This document shows positions 23,851 through 32,541 of a stretch of DNA of 64,000 nt, piece after piece. The position numbers and the translations under genes are program-made. Numbering within the stretch: position 1 is the first letter of the stretch; each line of letters opens with the position of its first letter. Location of the stretch: positions 3,013,057-3,077,056 of the forward strand of contig NZ_KB913029.1 of the NCBI RefSeq assembly GCF_000384115.1, read 5' to 3'. Origin of the DNA: Sporichthya polymorpha DSM 43042 (GTDB lineage: Bacteria > Actinomycetota > Actinomycetes > Sporichthyales > Sporichthyaceae). The notes under the pieces were generated by a model. The model saw only the letters and a list, made by a program, of their open reading frames with translations. It ran no database searches and was not told where the DNA came from.

Positions 23851-24042
23851 ATGGGCGAGCCGCGGAAGATGCCCGGTGGTGACCTGATCCGCAAGGCCAC
23901 CCGCGTGACCACCGACACCGCCGTCGCCGCGACCGAGGTGCTCTCGATGTCGCTGCGGATGACCGGCCGCCTCGTCCGCAAGGTCGTCCCCCGCCGCGAC
24001 GGCGACAGCGGCGACAGCAATCCGAGCCGCCCCGGCTGCTGA
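23851..24042 (+). CDS. Small basic hypothetical protein
   Basis: 63 codons: MGEPRKMPGGDLIRKATRVT and onward, with two basic patches (RKATR, RLVRKVVPRR) around an Ala/Thr-rich helix and an Asp/Ser-rich end. GGAGG lies four bases before the ATG and a strong terminator follows directly, which supports a real gene. No homologue recognised; function unknown. Confidence 0.5.
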   Translation: MGEPRKMPGGDLIRKATRVTTDTAVAATEVLSMSLRMTGRLVRKVVPRRDGDSGDSNPSRPGC

Positions 24043-24052
24043 CCTCGTAAAA

Positions 24053-24096
24053 AAAGGGTGACACCCCTTACTGCGCAGTAAGGGGTGTCACCCTTT
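24053..24096. terminator. Perfect 44-bp loop-free palindrome, bidirectional terminator
   Basis: Arms of 22 bp (AAAGGGTGACACCCCTTACT continuing GC) with an exact complement and no loop. It is preceded by an A-run (24049-24055) and followed by TTTCTT, so it has U-tracts in both directions, unusual here. It lies between the small gene ending at 24042 and the convergent deoC ending at 24114. Confidence 0.92.
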
Positions 24097-24113
24097 CTTG
24101 ACAAGGTGCGGCG

Positions 24114-24887
24114 TCAGGGGCGCCGGGCGGTGACGAGGGCGGTGACGAGGGCGTCGACGAGGGCGGAGGCGCCGATCCGGAACGTCGCGGGGGTCGCGGC
24201 GGCGCCGAGGGCGGTCTCGGCCTGCTCGAGGTAGGTGAGGGCGTCCGCGGGGGTCCGAACGCCGCCGGAGACCTTCACGCCGACGCGGCGGCCGCGGCGG
24301 ACGGCGTACTCGCTCGCGGCGGTCCAGAGGATGCCGGCGGCCTCGGGAGAGGCGCCGGGGTGGCCCTTGCCGGTCGAGGTCTTCAGCAGGTCGGCGCCGG
24401 CGTCGAGGGCGAGGTCCGCGGCCCGGCGGATGCGCTCCGGGGCGCCGAGCGCACCGGTCTCCAGGATCACCTTGAGCCGGACGCCGGCGGACGCCGCGCG
24501 CACGGCCGCGACCTCCTCGAACAGCGCCTGCTCGGCGCCGCTCGCGAAGGCGACATGGTCGACGACGAGGTCGATCTCGGTCGCGCCGTCGGCGATCGCC
24601 TGCTCGGTCTCCGCGACCTTCTCGGCGATCGTGGCCACGCCGGTGGGGAAGTTGCCCGCGACGCTCGCGACCGCGACCGACGTCCCGGCGACCTCGGCGG
24701 CAGCGACCTTCACCAGCCACGGGTAGACGCACACCGCGGCCACCGGCGGGACGCCGGAGTCCGTGGGGTCCGGCCGCCGCGCGCGGGCGCACAGGGCGGC
24801 GATCGTCTCGGGGGTGTCGGTGAGCTCGAGGCTCGTGAGGTCGGTCAGGGTCAGCAGCTGGACGAGGCGCTCGCGGGGAAGGGACAC
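24114..24887 (-). CDS. deoC: Deoxyribose-phosphate aldolase
   Basis: Splits 2-deoxyribose-5-phosphate to glyceraldehyde-3-phosphate and acetaldehyde. 257 residues. The Schiff-base lysine is in LLKTSTGKGHPGAS, the second catalytic lysine in VGVKVSGGVRT, and SVAGNFPTG and EIDLVVDH are typical. The GTG start comes 10 bases after the stop of the upstream peptidase gene. TAGGAT (24895-24900, minus strand), which contains that stop codon, is 7 bases before the GTG. deoC could therefore be leaderless from its own promoter as well as part of the upstream operon. Confidence 0.95.
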   Translation of the reverse strand: MSLPRERLVQLLTLTDLTSLELTDTPETIAALCARARRPDPTDSGVPPVAAVCVYPWLVKVAAAEVAGTSVAVASVAGNFPTGVATIAEKVAETEQAIADGATEIDLVVDHVAFASGAEQALFEEVAAVRAASAGVRLKVILETGALGAPERIRRAADLALDAGADLLKTSTGKGHPGASPEAAGILWTAASEYAVRRGRRVGVKVSGGVRTPADALTYLEQAETALGAAATPATFRIGASALVDALVTALVTARRP

Positions 24888-24897
24888 CCGACGGATC

Positions 24898-26079
24898 CTA
24901 GGCCTGGCCGCTCGACTCGACCGTGTGCTGCGCGGGGGCCGGCTGCTCCTCGCTCGGGAAGTCCTCGAGCGTGCCGAGCCGGGTGGTGTCCCAGTCGGCG
25001 AACGTGAGGTCGGACTGCAGGTACAGCGCCGTCAGCTCCGCGACGCTGCGGATCGCGCTGAGCGTCGTCCGCTCGTGGCCGTGGGTGGCGTCGGTGCCGA
25101 ACCCGATCAGCGCCGCGCGCATCTCCGCCCCGGCCTCGATGGCCGCGGCGACGTCCGAGCGGTAGTGGTGGAAGACGTCGCGCCGGTGTTCGAGCCCGTG
25201 CTCGGCGCAGAGGGCGAGCAGCTTGCGGGTCAGGTGGAAGTCGAACGGACCGGTCATGTCCTGCATCGCGACGGTCACGCCCGTCTCGATCGACTCCTGG
25301 ACCGGGGCGACGACGGCCGAGTCGATCGACACCATCTCGGCGACGTCCGCGTGCAGGCCGTGGCTCGCGCCGTGGCCGACCTCCTCGGCGATCGTGATCA
25401 GCAGCCGCGCCGTGACGGGGATGTCGACCTTGGCGTCGCGGACGGCCTTGAACGCTGCCAGCGCGGCCGCGACCCCGGCCTTGTCGTCGAGGTGACGGGA
25501 TTTCACGTACCCGTTGGGCGTGATCTCCGGCAGTGCGTGGTGCGCGACGAAGTCGCCGACCTGGATGCCGAGTGCTGCGAGGTCCGCCTTCGAGTGGACG
25601 GGCTCGTCGACGCGGACCTCGACGTGGTCCCAGCCGACGCCCTGCGTGTCGACCTCGTCGTCGTAGGCGTGCCCGCTCGCCTTGAGCGGGAGCACCGTGC
25701 CCGAGTAGGACACCTGCGGGTCGTCGGTGAAGATCGTGACCCGCGCGCCCTCGGAGAACCGCGCGCTGTGCGTGCCGATCGGCACGACCTGCAGGCGCCC
25801 GTTCGGCTTGAGGTGGCGGACCGCCATCCCGATCGTGTCGGAGTGGACCACGACGGCGCGTGACGGCGCGTGTCGCTGGCCGCGCAAGGTCGCGAGCAGG
25901 GCGCCACGACGGGTGAGCTCGAACGGAATCTCGAGCTCGGTGAGCACCTCGCCCAGGCAGTGCATGATCTGGTCGGTGCGCCCGGTCGGGCTCGGGATCA
26001 ACAGGAGCTTGAGCATCAGCTCGCGCATCCACTCGTCGTCGATCGGGAGCACCTTGGGTGTCGGCGCGGACGCCGTCAT
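24898..26079 (-). CDS. NAGGN-system M42/M20-type peptidase
   Basis: 393 residues. Co-catalytic metallopeptidase motifs are VVVHSDTIGMAV, SRHLDDKAGVAAAL, TIAEEVGHGASHG and SIDSAVVAP, with a late DATHGHERT. The sequence matches the peptidase that accompanies N-acetylglutaminylglutamine amide synthesis genes in proteobacteria ('osmoprotectant NAGGN system M42 family peptidase'). There it is thought to help turn over the osmolyte; the exact reaction is inferred. Its ATG overlaps the ngg stop, so translation is coupled. Confidence 0.9.
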   Translation of the reverse strand: MTASAPTPKVLPIDDEWMRELMLKLLLIPSPTGRTDQIMHCLGEVLTELEIPFELTRRGALLATLRGQRHAPSRAVVVHSDTIGMAVRHLKPNGRLQVVPIGTHSARFSEGARVTIFTDDPQVSYSGTVLPLKASGHAYDDEVDTQGVGWDHVEVRVDEPVHSKADLAALGIQVGDFVAHHALPEITPNGYVKSRHLDDKAGVAAALAAFKAVRDAKVDIPVTARLLITIAEEVGHGASHGLHADVAEMVSIDSAVVAPVQESIETGVTVAMQDMTGPFDFHLTRKLLALCAEHGLEHRRDVFHHYRSDVAAAIEAGAEMRAALIGFGTDATHGHERTTLSAIRSVAELTALYLQSDLTFADWDTTRLGTLEDFPSEEQPAPAQHTVESSGQA

Positions 26080-27839
26080 ACGTCGCTCCGCGCGGGCGTC
26101 GGCACCCACGGGCCCGGGAGCGGGCGCGTTGCCGGGAACAGCAGGTCGATGAACCGCTGGGCGGTCGGCTGGGGCTCGTGGTTGGCGAGCCCGGGCCGTT
26201 CGTTGGCCTCGATCACGTGATAGTCCGGTCCGTCGACGGCAGGAACCATGAAGTCCATGCCTACCACGGGGATGTCGAGAGCCTGGCTCGCCAGCACCGC
26301 CGCCGCGGCGAGTTCCGGGTGCAACTGCGCGGTGACGTCGTGGATCGTGCCGCCGGTGTGCAGGTTCGCCGTGCGCCGCACCTGGAGCTCGACGTCGACC
26401 GGCAGGACGTCGTCGAGGTCGTAACCAGCTTCCCGCACGATCTCGACGGTCGTGTCGTCGATCGGGATGCGGGACTCGCCGCCGGTCGCGGCGGAGCGCC
26501 GCCGGCTCTGGGCCTCGATGAGCGTGCGGATCGTGTGCTCGCCGGTGCCGATGACGGCGGCGGGCTTGCGGATCGCAGCGGCGACGACCTCGTGGTCGAT
26601 GACGAGCACCCGTAGGTCCTGGCCGGTCACCTGCTCCTCGAGCAGGACCTCGTTGCTGATGCGTCGCGCGGCCGCGATGGCGCGCTCGAGCTCGTCCGGG
26701 TCGGTGACGCCGACGGTGATGCCCTGACCCTGCTCGCCGCGGGCGGGCTTCACGACCACGGACCCGACCTCGGCGAGGAACTCCGCGTCGGCTGCCGTCC
26801 CGTCCGCCGCGCGGCCGCGGGGCACCGAGAGACCGGCCTGCGCGAGCACCCGGCGGGTGACGCGCTTGTCGTCGCACCGGCTCATCGCGACCGCCGTGGT
26901 CAGCTCGGACAGCGACTCCCGCGTCACGACCTTGCGGCCGCCGTGCGTCAGGCGGAGCTCACCCCACGCGGGGTCGAGCACCTCGACGTGGATGCCGCGG
27001 CGGATCGCCTCGTCGGCGACGATGCGTGCGTACGGGTTGAGCTGCGCGAGGTCCTCGGCCGGGCTGGAGGCGAACAGCCGTTCGTTGATGGGGTTCTTGC
27101 GCTTGACGCAGAAGACGGGGTGCCGGACAAAGCCGAGCTTCTCGTACAGCCGGATCGCCGGTGAGTTGTCGTGCAGCACCGAGAGGTCGACGTAGGCCGC
27201 GCCGGCGTCGGAGAGCCGGCCGGCGAGCGAGAGCACGAGGGCCTCGCCCACGCCCGGCCGCCTGCACTGCGGGTCGACGGCCAGGCACCACAGGCTCGAA
27301 CCGTGCTCAGGGTCCCCGAACGCCATGCGGTGGTCGACGCCGGTGACGGTGCCGACTATCGCGCCCGCCTCGCCGCTCGCGGTGACCTCCTCGGCGAGGA
27401 GGTAGTGGAACGCCTCGTCCTCGGAGTTGGCCAGCAGCGTGGCCGGTGGGGCGGTGAGCATGCCGCACGACGCGTACAGCCGGTTGACGGCCTCCGCGTC
27501 CGCGCGACTCGACAGGGTGCGGACGCGCACGAACGCGTCCGTGGGCGGCTCCGGGTGAGAGCCCGACAGATAGAGCCGGTACGTCACCGACGGATCTATG
27601 AACAGCTCGAACGGCGCCATGCTGACGAGCACCTGAGGCTCCGTCACGTACATGCAGATGTCGCGGCGTCCGCTGGTTTCCTCCGCCAGCACGCTGAGCA
27701 GGTGTTCGTGGTCGGCGAAGGTCTGACCCAGAATCAGCCGGCCCCACCCCAGGTCCAGCGCCACGTCCGTCTTGGCGTCGGGCGAGCGCCAGGACTGCGC
27801 CTGCCACCACTCCCGGCGCTCACCGATGGAGGTCGTCAT
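26076..27839 (-). CDS. ngg: N-acetylglutaminylglutamine synthetase (GNAT plus ATP-grasp)
   Basis: Makes N-acetylglutaminylglutamine, the precursor of the dipeptide osmolyte NAGGN. 587 residues. The first half has a GNAT acetyltransferase core (LWCLAVDPQCRRPGVGEALV, then DLSVLHDNSPAIRLYEKLGF). The second half is an ATP-grasp ligase (VVVKPARGEQGQGITVGV, LLEEQVTGQDLRVLVI, VIEANERPGLANHEPQPT). This fusion is the hallmark of Ngg. It lies between asnO (18 bases upstream) and the NAGGN peptidase (4-base overlap). Confidence 0.93.
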   Translation of the reverse strand: MTTSIGERREWWQAQSWRSPDAKTDVALDLGWGRLILGQTFADHEHLLSVLAEETSGRRDICMYVTEPQVLVSMAPFELFIDPSVTYRLYLSGSHPEPPTDAFVRVRTLSSRADAEAVNRLYASCGMLTAPPATLLANSEDEAFHYLLAEEVTASGEAGAIVGTVTGVDHRMAFGDPEHGSSLWCLAVDPQCRRPGVGEALVLSLAGRLSDAGAAYVDLSVLHDNSPAIRLYEKLGFVRHPVFCVKRKNPINERLFASSPAEDLAQLNPYARIVADEAIRRGIHVEVLDPAWGELRLTHGGRKVVTRESLSELTTAVAMSRCDDKRVTRRVLAQAGLSVPRGRAADGTAADAEFLAEVGSVVVKPARGEQGQGITVGVTDPDELERAIAAARRISNEVLLEEQVTGQDLRVLVIDHEVVAAAIRKPAAVIGTGEHTIRTLIEAQSRRRSAATGGESRIPIDDTTVEIVREAGYDLDDVLPVDVELQVRRTANLHTGGTIHDVTAQLHPELAAAAVLASQALDIPVVGMDFMVPAVDGPDYHVIEANERPGLANHEPQPTAQRFIDLLFPATRPLPGPWVPTPARSDV

Positions 27840-27857
27840 GTCGTTGTTCCCCCAGAC

Positions 27858-29636
27858 TTACAGGCCATGGCCCTGGAGCCACAGCTCGAGGAGCCCCAGC
27901 TGCCACAGCGGGTTACCGCGCAGCGGCGTGAGATTGCCGTTCGGATCGGCGAGCAGTCGGGACACCTCCGATTCGGCGAAAAGCCCACGTTGCCGGGCGG
28001 CCGGCGCGTGGAGGGCGTCCCGCACGAGGTCCAGGTACGGCCCCTGCAGGTGCTTGAGCGCGGGCACCGGGAAGTAGCCCTTCGGACGGTCGATGACCGC
28101 GTCCGGGATGACTCGGCGACCGGCCTCCTTCAGTACGCCCTTGCCCTCCTGTGCGAGCTTGAGCTCGGGCGGGCAGGCGGCGGCGAGCTCCACGAGCTCG
28201 TGGTCGAGGAACGGGACCCGGGCCTCCAGGCCCCACGCCATCGTCATGTTGTCGACGCGCTTGACGGGGTCGTCGACGAGCATGATCTGGGAGTCGATGC
28301 GCAGCGCCTTGTCGACGGCGGTCTCGGCCCCGGGCGCGCCGAAGTGGGCGGCGACGAACTCGGTGCTGACGTCGCGGTCGAGTCGGTAGTCCGGGGACAG
28401 CGCGGCGTTGCGGGCGGCGAGGTCGCGGTCGAAGAACGCGCGCGCGTAAGTGCCGAGCTCGTCGTTCCCGGCCTCGCGCATCGGCGGGTACCAGTGGTAA
28501 CCCGCGAACACCTCGTCCGCGCCCTGACCGGACTGCACGACCTTGACGTGCTTGCTTACCTCCTCGGAGAGGAGGAAGAACGCCACCGCGTCGTGGCTGA
28601 CCATCGGCTCGCTCATCGCCGCGATGGCCCGCGGCAGCGCGGGCAGCATGCGCTCGGTGGCGACGCGGATCTGGTGGTGGTCCGTGCCGAACTCGCGGGC
28701 GATGACGTCGGAGTACTTGAACTCGTCGCCCTCCTCGCCGCCGGCCGCCTCGAACCCGATGCTGAACGTGGCGAGGCCGCGCTGGCCCTCCTCGGCGAGC
28801 AGGCCGACCACCAGGCTGGAGTCGAGACCACCGGAGAGCAGCACACCGACGGGGACGTCCGCGACCAGACGTCGACGCACCGAGACGCGCAGGGCCTCGA
28901 GGACCGCATCCTCCCAGTCGCGCTCGGACCAGTGCGCCTTGCTCGCGTCGCGCTCGAACGAGGGGCGCCAGTACTCGCGCTGGTTCCGGCGGCCGTCGGG
29001 TTCGATCGTCAGCATCGTCGCGGGCGGCAGCTTCGAGACGCCGGCGAGGATCGTCCGCGGCGGCGGCACGATCGAGTGGAACGTCAGGTAGTGGTGCAAC
29101 GCGACCGGGTCGATGTCGGTGTCCACCCCGCCGCCGGCGAGCAGCGCCGGCAGCGTCGAGGCGAAGCGCAGGCGGCCCGGGCGCTCGGTGAGGTAGAGCG
29201 GCTTGATGCCGAGGCGGTCGCGCGCGAACAGGACGCGGCCGCTGTCGCGCTCGACGATGCAGATCGCGAACATGCCCAACAGGTGGTCGACGAAGTCGTC
29301 GCCCCACTGCCGGTAGGCCTTCGCGATGACCTCGGTGTCCGAGGTCGAGAAGAAGCGGTAGCCGGCCTGCTGCAGTTCGGCCCGCAGTTCCGGGTAGTTG
29401 TAGATGCAGCCGTTGAACGCGACCGTCAGACCGAGTTCGGGGTCGACCATCGGCTGCGCACCGGCCTCGGAGAGGTCGATGATCTGCAATCGGCGGTGAC
29501 CGAGGGCGATGCGTCCGTTGGACCAGACGCCGCTGCCGTCGGGGCCACGGTCGGACATCGTCGCTGCCATCGTGGCCACGGCAGCTACGTCGGGGGAGTC
29601 GTCTTTCAGGCAGAGTTCACCGGCAAATCCACACAC
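27858..29636 (-). CDS. asnO: N-acetylglutaminylglutamine amidotransferase (AsnB-type)
   Basis: Converts N-acetylglutaminylglutamine to its C-terminal amide using glutamine and ATP. 592 residues. The N-terminal class II glutaminase has the nucleophile Cys2 (MCGFAGELCL) and MSDRGPDGSGVW. The C-terminal synthetase domain has the ATP-pyrophosphatase motif GVLLSGGLDSSLVVGLL and GQGADEVFAGYHWYP. By itself it could be an asparagine synthetase. The adjoining ngg and NAGGN peptidase make the amidotransferase of the osmolyte pathway much more likely. It begins 10 bases after the mutase gene, within one long minus-strand operon. Confidence 0.92.
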   Translation of the reverse strand: MCGFAGELCLKDDSPDVAAVATMAATMSDRGPDGSGVWSNGRIALGHRRLQIIDLSEAGAQPMVDPELGLTVAFNGCIYNYPELRAELQQAGYRFFSTSDTEVIAKAYRQWGDDFVDHLLGMFAICIVERDSGRVLFARDRLGIKPLYLTERPGRLRFASTLPALLAGGGVDTDIDPVALHHYLTFHSIVPPPRTILAGVSKLPPATMLTIEPDGRRNQREYWRPSFERDASKAHWSERDWEDAVLEALRVSVRRRLVADVPVGVLLSGGLDSSLVVGLLAEEGQRGLATFSIGFEAAGGEEGDEFKYSDVIAREFGTDHHQIRVATERMLPALPRAIAAMSEPMVSHDAVAFFLLSEEVSKHVKVVQSGQGADEVFAGYHWYPPMREAGNDELGTYARAFFDRDLAARNAALSPDYRLDRDVSTEFVAAHFGAPGAETAVDKALRIDSQIMLVDDPVKRVDNMTMAWGLEARVPFLDHELVELAAACPPELKLAQEGKGVLKEAGRRVIPDAVIDRPKGYFPVPALKHLQGPYLDLVRDALHAPAARQRGLFAESEVSRLLADPNGNLTPLRGNPLWQLGLLELWLQGHGL

Positions 29637-29646
29637 GCCAGGGAAC

Positions 29647-31161
29647 CTACCCGCGTTCTGACTCCCTCATCCCGACGAGAACGTTGCACAACTCACGGCC
29701 CGCGAGCTCGAGTTGTTCCGCAAGACCTGCGCGTTCTCGGTCCGGGTGGACGGGGGGCGATTCACCGGAAACGTACAGGTAGATCTTGAGTTTCGGCTCG
29801 GTTCCACTCGGTCGGACCACCGCGGTGATCGCCCCCGCGGTCACCCGGACCCCGGTGGTCGGAGGCAGTCCGGTGCCGGGCGCGCTGAGGTTCTGGACGT
29901 CGTCGACGGGGACCCCCGCCAGGTGCCGCGGCGGCGCGTCCCGCAGTCGCCGCAGGGCCGTGCCGGCCTGCTCGGGGTCGTCGGTGCGGATCGACCGGGG
30001 TGCGGACACATGCACGCCGTAACGCTGCGCCAGCGCGTCGAGACGCTCGCCCAGCGGGACCGCGGCTGCCATCTCCGCGATCAGCAGGGCGGCGCTGATG
30101 CCGTCCTTGTCCCGGACCCCGCCGGGGTCGACGCAGTAGCCGAGCGCCTCCTCGTAGGCGTACGCGACGCCCGGCACGCGGGCCAGCCACTTGAACCCGG
30201 TCAGCGTGCGAACGCAACGCCGGCCGTGCGCGGCGGCGATGCGGTCCAGCAGGGGTGAGGAGACGATCGTCGTCGCGAGGACGCCGTCGGGCGGGATCCG
30301 CCCGGAGCTCAGCAGGTGCTCCGCGAGCAGCGCACCGACCTCGTCGCCAGTGAGTGCCCGGTAGCCGTCGCCGTCGCGGATCATCACCGCGCAGCGGTCG
30401 CCGTCGGGGTCGTGCGCGAGGACGAGGTCCGCGTCCACCCGCGCGGCCGTCGCCGCGGCCAGGTCGAGCGCCCCGGGCTCCTCCGGATTGGGGAAGGCGA
30501 CGGTCGGGAAGTCCGGGTCCGGCGCGGCCTGCTCGGCGACCTCGGCGTAGGGGGCGAAGCCGGCCCGCTCCCAGGCCTGGCGGAACGTCGCGCCCGCGAC
30601 CCCGTGCAGCGGCGTGTACGCGACGCGGGGCGAGGTCCGCGGCGCGTCGGCCGGCACCAGCGACACGGTCCGGGCGAGGTAGGCCTCGACGAGGTCCTCG
30701 CGCACGAGCTCGCCCGGCGCGTCGGAGCGCGGGACGTCGGCCGGGGCCGCGGCGATCGCGGCCTCCATCGCGGCGTCGGCCGGCGGGGCGATCTGGGAAC
30801 CATCGGCGAGGTAGACCTTGTAACCGTTGTCGGACGCGGGGTTGTGCGAGGCCGTGATCATCACCCCGGCCGCGGCCGCGAGCTGCCGGACGGCGAACGC
30901 GAGCACCGGGGTCGGGAGCTCGCGGGGCATCAGCAGGGTCGGCCGGCCGGCGGCGCGGAGGACCGCGGCGGCCTCAGCGGCGAAGCGCGCCGACCCGTGC
31001 CGGGCGTCGAAGCCGACGACGACCGGGCCCAGAATCTGATTCTCCGTCAGGTAAGTGGCGAGGCCGTAGCTCGCCCGAGCGACGAGCGCGGTGTTGAACT
31101 GTCCCGGGCCGTCGCCCATCGGCGCGCGCAGACCAGCGGTGCCGAACCGGACGTCGGACAT
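29647..31161 (-). CDS. Phospho-sugar mutase (phosphomannomutase/phosphopentomutase-like)
   Basis: 504 residues of the alpha-D-phosphohexomutase superfamily. The phosphoserine loop is TASHNPASDNGYKVY, the metal-binding loop DPDGDRCAV, the sugar-binding loop YEEALGYCVDP and the phosphate-binding loop RPSGTEPKLKIYLY. It corresponds in position to mycobacterial pmmB beside deoD. In a nucleoside cluster it most likely isomerises (deoxy)ribose-1-phosphate or glucose-1-phosphate. Which sugar is used cannot be decided from sequence. Confidence 0.92.
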   Translation of the reverse strand: MSDVRFGTAGLRAPMGDGPGQFNTALVARASYGLATYLTENQILGPVVVGFDARHGSARFAAEAAAVLRAAGRPTLLMPRELPTPVLAFAVRQLAAAAGVMITASHNPASDNGYKVYLADGSQIAPPADAAMEAAIAAAPADVPRSDAPGELVREDLVEAYLARTVSLVPADAPRTSPRVAYTPLHGVAGATFRQAWERAGFAPYAEVAEQAAPDPDFPTVAFPNPEEPGALDLAAATAARVDADLVLAHDPDGDRCAVMIRDGDGYRALTGDEVGALLAEHLLSSGRIPPDGVLATTIVSSPLLDRIAAAHGRRCVRTLTGFKWLARVPGVAYAYEEALGYCVDPGGVRDKDGISAALLIAEMAAAVPLGERLDALAQRYGVHVSAPRSIRTDDPEQAGTALRRLRDAPPRHLAGVPVDDVQNLSAPGTGLPPTTGVRVTAGAITAVVRPSGTEPKLKIYLYVSGESPPVHPDRERAGLAEQLELAGRELCNVLVGMRESERG

Positions 31162-31171
31162 CGGGACTTCC

Positions 31172-31978
31172 CTACGCCGGCCAGTGCGTCAGGGTCTCGG
31201 CCAGCAGCGCGGCGAGCTCGTCCGCCGCTGCGCGACCCGCGTCGAGGACGTCGGCGTGGTCGAGGGCCGGCCCCGTCCCCGCCGCCGCGTTTGTCACCAG
31301 CGACAGGCCGAGCACGTCGAGCCCGGCCTCGCGGGCGGCGATCGTCTCCAGCGCCGTCGACATGCCGACGAGGTCGGCGCCGAGGATCCCCGCCATCCGA
31401 ACCTCGGCCGGGGTCTCGTACTGCGGCCCGGCGAACTGCGCGTAGACGCCCTCCGGCAGGGCGGGCCGGATCGCGCGGGCGTGTGCGCGCAGCGTGGGGG
31501 AGTACGCGTCGGTGAGGTCGACGAACCGTGCCCCGCGCAGCGGCGAGGCGCCGGTGAGGTTGAGGTGGTCGGCGATCAGCACCGGGGTCCCGGGCGGCCA
31601 CTCCGGGCGCAGGCCGCCGGCGGCGTTGGTGAGCACGACCGCTCGGGCGCCGGCCGCGGCCGCCGTCCGGACACTGTGCACCACCGCGACCGGGTCGCGG
31701 TGCTCGTAGTAATGAGTGCGGCCGGCGAGGACGAGAACCCGATGAGGCCCGGCGTCGAGGACGTGGACGCGGCCGAGATGCCCGGCCGCCGTGGGCGGGG
31801 CGAAGCCGGGGAGGTCGGCCACAGGGATGCCGTCGTCGGCTCCGCCGAGGGCGGCCACGACCCCGTTCCAGCCCGAGCCGAGAACGACGGCGAGGTCGAC
31901 CGGGCCGGTGCGCCCGCGCAGCTGCTCCGCGGCCGCCGCGGCGAGCGCGTAGGGGTCGGCGTCGGGAGCTGTGCTCAC
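31172..31978 (-). CDS. Purine nucleoside phosphorylase
   Basis: Phosphorolysis of (deoxy)inosine and guanosine to base and (deoxy)ribose-1-phosphate. 268 residues of the trimeric class (PNP/MTAP superfamily). Motifs are [23 protein letters not shown] (phosphate-site His), [34 protein letters not shown] and [12 protein letters not shown] start overlaps the stop of the gene before it (GTGA). In mycobacteria the equivalent gene is called deoD. It takes the inosine produced by Add and passes the sugar phosphate to the neighbouring mutase. Confidence 0.94.
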
Positions 31979-32424
31979 GGGTCGGAGCGGCAGGGCCGCT
32001 CGCGGAGCCACTTCACGTAGTCGTCGGGGGCGCCGGCGCGCTCGGCCGCGTCCGCGATGTGGCCGATCAGCCGGGCGGAGGGCAGGCCGCCCTCGTAGCC
32101 GTCCACGACGTAGATCCAGGCCAGCTCGTCGCCGTCCATGGTCGCGACCCGGACGCGGATCTTCCGGTAGAACCCGATCGCGGTGCCCTCCCAGCCGTCG
32201 AGCTCCTGCTCGTCCGCGGGGGTGACGTCGTACAGGGCGACGAAGACCTGGTGCCCGGGGTCCTCGACGACCGTCGTGCGTGCGCCGTCGCCAGGCAGCT
32301 CCTCGCCGCCGAACGTCAGGCGCCAGTTGACCAGCCAACCGGTACCCCGCTGCGGCGAGTGCGGCGCGATGAGCGCCATCAACGCCGGGTCGAGGTTCTT
32401 GCCGTAGGCGGCGTACAGGGCCAT
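31975..32424 (-). CDS. Gamma-glutamylcyclotransferase-fold protein
   Basis: 149 residues with the fold's start [22 protein letters not shown] (the YGxN/S nucleotide-like loop) and the later stretch [18 protein letters not shown], where the family has its catalytic acid. Family members release 5-oxoproline from gamma-glutamyl peptides or amines; the substrate here is unknown. It starts the minus-strand operon and overlaps the PNP start. No Shine-Dalgarno is seen. TAAGCT lies 8 bases before the ATG and may be a -10 box. A similar gene lies beside lpdA in other actinobacteria. Confidence 0.82.
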
Positions 32425-32541
32425 GGGTGGTCAGCTTAGGGCGGCGCGACGCCGCTTTCCGGCAGGTCGGGGCGCAAGTCACAACGGGTCGGCGAGGCGC
32501 GGGTTCGGGTCGGGGAGCGCCGCGGGGGAGAATGAAGCCCT

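Follow-up and report, generated by a model that had tools for sequence, protein, structure and literature searches.

Three genes for the osmoprotectant N-acetylglutaminylglutamine amide (NAGGN) in Sporichthya polymorpha DSM 43042, namely, asnO, ngg, and an M42 family peptidase gene, separate pmm from deoC in a nucleoside-salvage operon. Comparative sequence analysis makes it probable that this trio was relocated into the operon within the ancestor of the genus and kept its own promoter. The stretch of DNA analyzed, here called the window, comprises 64,000 nucleotides (contig NZ_KB913029.1, positions 3,013,057 to 3,077,056), and all coordinates are those of the window. The gene set and the pathway are already known; what is new is the position of the trio and the promoter predicted for asnO, and no description of either, or of the overlap of the promoter with a stop codon, was found in the open-licence literature. 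The genes at the junction are as follows:

29647..31161, minus strand, pmm-type phosphohexomutase or phosphopentomutase-like gene; PGM_PMM domains I-III above the cut-off
27858..29636, minus strand, asnO, N-acetylglutaminylglutamine amidotransferase; TIGR03104, 996 bits, cut-off 570
26076..27839, minus strand, ngg, N-acetylglutaminylglutamine synthetase; TIGR03103, 838 bits, cut-off 569; GNAT and RimK-like ATP-grasp domains
24898..26079, minus strand, NAGGN-system M42 family peptidase gene; TIGR03106, 505 bits, cut-off 398
24114..24887, minus strand, deoC, deoxyribose-phosphate aldolase; TIGR00126, 177 bits, cut-off 117

As judged from these profile matches, the trio is an ordinary NAGGN osmoprotectant set; asnO, ngg, and M42 all pass their NCBIfam equivalog cut-offs, in agreement with the complete set claimed in the initial annotation. 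Its description of a trio that interrupts the pmm-deoC block with tight spacing also holds in coordinates, order, and gaps, i.e., 10 bases between pmm and asnO, 18 between asnO and ngg, a 4-base overlap of ngg and M42, and 10 bases between M42 and deoC. The order of transcription on the minus strand is a gamma-glutamyl cyclotransferase-like gene, the purine-nucleoside phosphorylase (PNP) gene, pmm, asnO, ngg, M42, and deoC. No NCBIfam family exceeded its own cut-off on pmm. The long open reading frame at 24898-26877 was rejected as the M42 gene since it is an over-extension, in which the M42 profile match begins only at residue 280.

Placement of the trio in the genus, the family, and the class

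The order pmm-asnO-ngg-M42-deoC was found in all three genomes of the genus that were examined, i.e., that of the window and those designated G003 and G004. A profile search detected a single ngg above the cut-off in the window's genome, and ngg exceeds the TIGR03103 cut-off in all five genomes of the family, which are all those of its order in the set. Class-wide, the same cut-off is exceeded in 52 of 393 genomes, which belong to 13 of 137 genera and 8 families, and the available text of papers on Micromonospora (PMC11537254, PMC8146288) and Frankia (PMC5563000, PMC5768760) reports NAGGN genes as well. The pathway is thus not foreign to Actinobacteria. When the flanks of all 52 class loci were compared with the proteins of the window (51 of the 52 are long enough on both sides), none of the 49 loci outside the genus had the pmm/deoC placement (48 of these have long enough flanks on either side). 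Likewise, neither pmm, PNP, deoC, ada, nor deoA was near ngg at any of the best 80 named actinobacterial loci among the matches listed, of which 70 have enough flank and 7 overlap the class set. A search for ngg between pmm and deoC in other Actinobacteria, as the initial annotation had proposed, therefore succeeds in G003 and G004 and at none of these other loci. As far as these comparisons indicate, the placement between pmm and deoC is a derived state.

The gene asnO is near ngg at 49 of the 52 class loci, and M42 is inside the fetched flank at 29 of them. Among the Mycobacteriaceae loci L062-L072, L074-L079, L081, L101, and L105, M42 is in the fetched flank only at L105 (19 of 20 without it). 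At L222 (Skermanella mucosa plasmid pSM-3), ngg is carried on a plasmid, and asnO or M42 is not annotated within approximately 5 kb.

The sister genus provides the empty site. In its genome G002, the cyclotransferase-like gene is followed by PNP and pmm, and deoC lies 11 bases past the pmm stop codon with no trio between them. The trio of G002 is on a separate contig, where its neighbors encode a molybdopterin oxidoreductase and an acyl-CoA dehydrogenase, and that of the other sister-genus genome, G001, adjoins a RecQ-like helicase gene. A scan of ten flank proteins showed that the neighbors differ between G001 and G002, and a shared trio context in the sister genus was ruled out. Searches of G001, a genome rated 100% complete, matched neither pmm (E 1e-30) nor deoC (E 1e-15); the salvage route has perhaps been lost there. 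Within the genus, the pmm-asnO spacer measures 10 nt in the window and in G003 and 51 nt in G004, the pmm of which is 65% identical although the arrangement is kept. The bare junction of G002 and these two spacer lengths suggest that the likely path was from a bare junction through insertion to spacer trimming, and the trio was most likely already present in the family when it entered the nucleoside-salvage operon. Repeats and mobile-element scars were sought at the insertion borders, and only short, chance-like repeats were found apart from a hairpin past deoC.

Sequence elements preceding asnO and deoC

The TANNNT motif at approximately 7 nt before the start codon is associated, in the available text of PMC3160421 and PMC3898074, with leaderless (TA-led) genes of Actinobacteria. 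Four such or related elements are located in the trio region of the window:

29646..29652, minus strand, GGGTAGG, conserved element before asnO; contains the pmm stop codon (29647-29649)
29644..29649, minus strand, TAGGTT, TANNNT -10 element, 7 nt upstream of the asnO start codon
29667..29672, minus strand, GGATGA, -35-like hexamer of the GNNT type, 14 nt upstream of GGGTAG; weak
24895..24900, minus strand, TAGGAT, TANNNT element, 7 nt upstream of deoC; shares its TAG with the M42 stop codon

GGGTAGG is located 8-9 nt upstream of the asnO start in all five family genomes, which represent three genomic contexts. At the -35-like position, G003 and G001 have GGATG and G002 has GGGTGT. In G004, the element starts approximately 35 bases past the pmm stop. 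A class II amidotransferase requires Cys as residue 2, which fixes the asnO start codon, and errors in the start are therefore unlikely. From 132 actinobacterial ngg loci, 12 without a usable asnO start were set aside, and the remaining 120 upstream sequences were reduced to 69 distinct ones by removing those at least 75% alike; the family accounts for four of the 69 (G003 duplicates the window). TANNNT ends 7-8 nt before the asnO start in 39 of these 69 sequences and occurs only twice at all other distances from 0 to 45, whereas the mean in 1000 letter shuffles was 0.9 phased motifs and the maximum 5. Before ngg, TANNNT was absent from all 31 distinct upstreams, and 22 M42 upstreams contained three TANNNT motifs, one of them at distance 7. 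Phased TANNNT is absent from the seven alphaproteobacterial asnO upstreams, each of which contains a ribosome-site-like word.

A more extended pattern of GTTT, 15-16 bases, and GGGTA is present in 9 of the 120 upstreams, all mycobacterial, and some mycobacterial upstreams retain T-A-N-N-N-T with changed middle letters. In the window, only GGATGA-N14-GGGTAG is seen, with a weak -35 match to this SigB/SigF-type pattern. Given the phasing, we infer that asnO is preceded by its own active promoter, and the asnO and deoC mRNAs are probably leaderless. The asnO genes of Micromonosporaceae (e.g., L106, L107, L151-L154, and L157-L160) are preceded by another conserved sequence, the core of which is TCTGGCAGCAT.

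Both asnO and deoC start with GTG (29636 and 24887, respectively). The elements before them both incorporate the stop codon TAG of the preceding gene, and deoC, too, looks separately promoted. The frequency of such matches was calibrated in 1.66 Mb of the window's genome (the window and L233-L312), with gene starts taken from a simple purpose-made gene caller. In the first 864 kb, 19 of 237 operon-internal starts have a TANNNT that ends 6-8 nt upstream (asnO is not counted among the 19), as do 54 of 527 other starts; at other distances, the counts are at most 1 and at most 7, respectively. A fresh 800 kb gave 14 phased of 217 operon-internal starts and one or none at any other distance shown. 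This sharp genome-wide phasing makes it unlikely that the match before asnO or deoC is due to chance.

The TA of the phased motif is sometimes supplied by the preceding stop codon; a genome-wide enrichment of such stops at 9-11-base junctions was strong in the first sample and weaker in the second. The first 864 kb have TAG or TAA stops at 16 of 29 junctions of 9-11 bases and at 25 of 216 junctions with other gaps between -10 and 30 (14 of 25 junctions of 9-11 bases with a slightly different gene set), and in the fresh 800 kb, they are found at 4 of 12 versus 14 of 205 (p 0.011), or versus 14 of 75 when the comparison is with non-overlapping junctions alone (p 0.26). The sixth base is T at 10 of 16 (864 kb) and 3 of 4 (800 kb) of the 9-11-base junctions with TA stops, versus 5 of 24 and 2 of 19 at 12-60 bases, and 0 of 13 and 1 of 8 at 9-11-base TGA junctions. 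Elsewhere, the corresponding TAG/TAA counts are 6/10 versus 17/81 in Mycobacteriaceae, 2/3 versus 5/64 in Jiangellaceae, 0/2 versus 1/26 in nine others, and 6/22 versus 19/222 at 78 named loci, with a sixth-base T in 5/6, 0/2, 0/0, and 4/6, respectively.

Outside the trio region, the operon and its end contain the following features:

31975..32424, minus strand, gamma-glutamyl cyclotransferase-like gene at the operon head; Pfam GGACT 43 bits, cut-off 22.8; AIG2_2 above the cut-off
32433..32438, minus strand, TAAGCT, -10-like promoter element, 8 nt upstream of the first gene
31172..31978, minus strand, PNP gene; TIGR01698, 316 bits, cut-off 302.6 (scored on a longer frame)
24042..24107, no strand assigned, long hairpin with a T-run between the convergent deoC and ada; 33-nt arms, 91% complementary; -54.1 kcal/mol, z -9.3

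The NCBIfam profile search gave no match to the cyclotransferase-like gene, which is upstream of PNP in G002 as well (80%). PNP starts with GTG, which overlaps the stop of the gene ahead. On the plus strand, ada, deoA, and a cytidine deaminase gene converge on the operon, and the hairpin at 24042-24107 is a probable two-way terminator.

Origin of the trio and alternative explanations

Quick trees without bootstraps were built for ngg (57 rows), asnO (51 rows), and M42 (33 rows), with alphaproteobacteria from plasmids as the only proteobacterial sequences. In each tree, the family is a single clade of five rows, with branch values, not bootstraps, of 100 for ngg, 100 for asnO, and 99 for M42, and the alphaproteobacterial rows (8, 7, and 4, respectively) form one separate branch. 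Nesting of the family trio among these alphaproteobacteria was not seen in any of the three trees. In the ngg tree, G001 and G002 are not a clade and G001 is closer to the window's genus; transfer of the trio between members of the family is possible. The closest trio seen is that of the sister genus, which is 71-84% identical and occupies a different site. Because the family stays together as a clade in all three trees, the trio looks like resident genes that were relocated rather than transferred from alphaproteobacteria.

The initial annotation had offered a neat transfer into the operon as one reading. A horizontal transfer that brought the trio straight into the operon, with proteobacteria or another actinobacterial order as the donor, would suit the patchy distribution in the class (52/393), and an ancient transfer of NAGGN genes is published as a suggestion for Micromonospora in the available text of PMC11537254. 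The three trees, however, show no sign of an alphaproteobacterial origin and disfavor proteobacterial transfer as far as their only proteobacterial rows, alphaproteobacteria from plasmids, extend, and the nearest relatives of the trio stand elsewhere in the sister genus. In addition, the third-position GC content of the trio (0.92-0.96) is like that of its neighbors (0.91-0.97), and a foreign composition was not seen. We regard such a transfer as highly improbable. The other reading of the initial annotation was functional coupling, in which a single transcript begun at the first gene or at PNP would make osmolyte synthesis follow nucleoside breakdown. The tight spacing, the preservation of the arrangement in three genus genomes despite the divergent pmm of G004, and the single strong hairpin, which is located only past deoC, speak for coupling, as does the terminator scan between the operon genes, which gave one match, inside asnO, where 1.6 are expected by chance in the region. 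Co-transcription of asnO by read-through from pmm is thus possible. On the other hand, promoter-like elements precede asnO and deoC, the same asnO element is present where the trio stands elsewhere, and the linkage is absent at the 49 class loci and the best 80 named loci (ten with short flanks). The initial annotation itself had held that a separate promoter before asnO would remove coupling, and the comparative evidence points to one. Coupling by one transcript is weakened by these comparisons, and we judge it unlikely.

Relocation with a retained promoter has to be weighed against several contrary observations. The bare pmm-deoC junction is known from one genome only (G002), and pmm and deoC are directly adjacent at none of 27 pmm loci of other families; deoC is approximately 200-1260 bases after pmm at 12 of these and outside the fetched bases at 15, so the bare junction need not be ancestral. 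An insertion hot spot is not claimed from the spacers of the 12 loci. Strict TANNNT is absent from 30 of the 69 asnO upstreams, including those of G001, G002, and G004, and is found in two of the five family genomes (the window and G003); the other three lack the final T and keep GGGTAGG. The conserved stretch before asnO differs in Micromonosporaceae, and a sigma-70 scan gave no promoter in the region, which was judged uninformative since the scan demands a TTGACA-like -35. A ribosome-site-like 4-mer is present in 17 of the 69 upstreams, and AGG in TAGG and AGGA in TAGGAT, which are at a plausible ribosome-site distance, could serve as weak ribosome sites. Together with the overlap of the window's element with the pmm stop, this could mean that GGGTAGG/TAGGTT acts as a ribosome-binding site or simply arises from the stop codon, with the operon an ordinary polycistron. 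That explanation appears rather doubtful, because some mycobacterial forms conserve T-A-N-N-N-T despite other middle letters, the spaced GTTT-GGGTA pattern recurs in mycobacteria, and the G004 element begins well past the pmm stop. The seven alphaproteobacterial upstreams, in which the ribosome-site-like word is universal, lack the phased motif.

Proposed path and comparison with known systems

Under the relocation that we favor, the trio would have moved as a unit, in the ancestor of the genus, from another chromosomal place to the pmm-deoC junction. Its ngg product makes acetylglutaminylglutamine, which the asnO product converts to the amide; recycling of NAGGN is the probable, predicted role of the M42 peptidase. 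The trio would keep its own promoter, which ends so near the start codon of asnO that a leaderless mRNA is probable, and deoC, separated from pmm, would likewise have a promoter element of the leaderless type ahead of it. Trimming of the spacers in the window's species would have gone on until the pmm and M42 stops belonged to the two elements. With their own elements, asnO-ngg-M42 and deoC could therefore be expressed independently. Lacking a good ribosome site, a leaderless start may also be translated poorly from read-through transcripts, which would partially insulate the osmolyte genes; in the available text of PMC3160421, leaderless starts are suggested to prevent translation from leaked upstream transcripts. 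From the sequence patterns, we infer the active promoter, its sigma factor, leaderless translation, and insulation alike, and the osmolyte and nucleoside functions appear to be linked by location more than by regulation.

Short gaps between the genes of an actinobacterial operon need not, then, imply a single transcript. The genomes suggest a series of bare junction, loose insertion, and trimmed insertion by which an accessory trio may enter a core operon, and in many Actinobacteria, a leaderless promoter with a fixed position at the start codon of asnO is predicted to drive NAGGN synthesis. More tentatively, and with less than even confidence, a preceding stop codon that doubles as the -10 start of a leaderless promoter might be a general way to embed a separately controlled stress gene in an operon, and the asnO promoter might represent an ancient actinobacterial NAGGN control, possibly of the SigB/SigF type.

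The founding NAGGN paper is reportedly that of Sagot et al. (2010). With regard to the promoter, the GGGTAG -10 of the window resembles those of Streptomyces coelicolor SigB promoters, which, in the available text of PMC8346170, have GGGTAG or GGGTAT at -10 and GNNT or GTTT at -35 and are mostly salt-induced in vivo; the -35 match of the window is weak. The -10 element of the window overlaps the preceding stop codon, whereas the phrase "stop codon" is absent from the main text of PMC3160421 and PMC3898074. With regard to the genes, the peptidase gene of Frankia is between asnO and ngg in the available text of PMC5563000, unlike the order in the window. The Micromonospora clusters described in the available part of PMC11537254 are, like that of the window, actinobacterial, conserved, and chromosomal; at the named Micromonosporaceae loci, pmm or deoC was not seen in the flanks, and asnO is preceded by other conserved sequence, unlike in the window. 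Sinorhizobium meliloti is named with Pseudomonas aeruginosa as a species with the asnO-ngg and M42 NAGGN pathway, and the asnO-ngg-M42 order is present on three Azospirillum plasmids as well. The three gene kinds and their order in P. aeruginosa PA3459-PA3461 match those of the window in the available text of PMC8070244; the P. aeruginosa operon faces the divergent MarR repressor gene PA3458, whereas asnO of the window follows pmm on the same strand.

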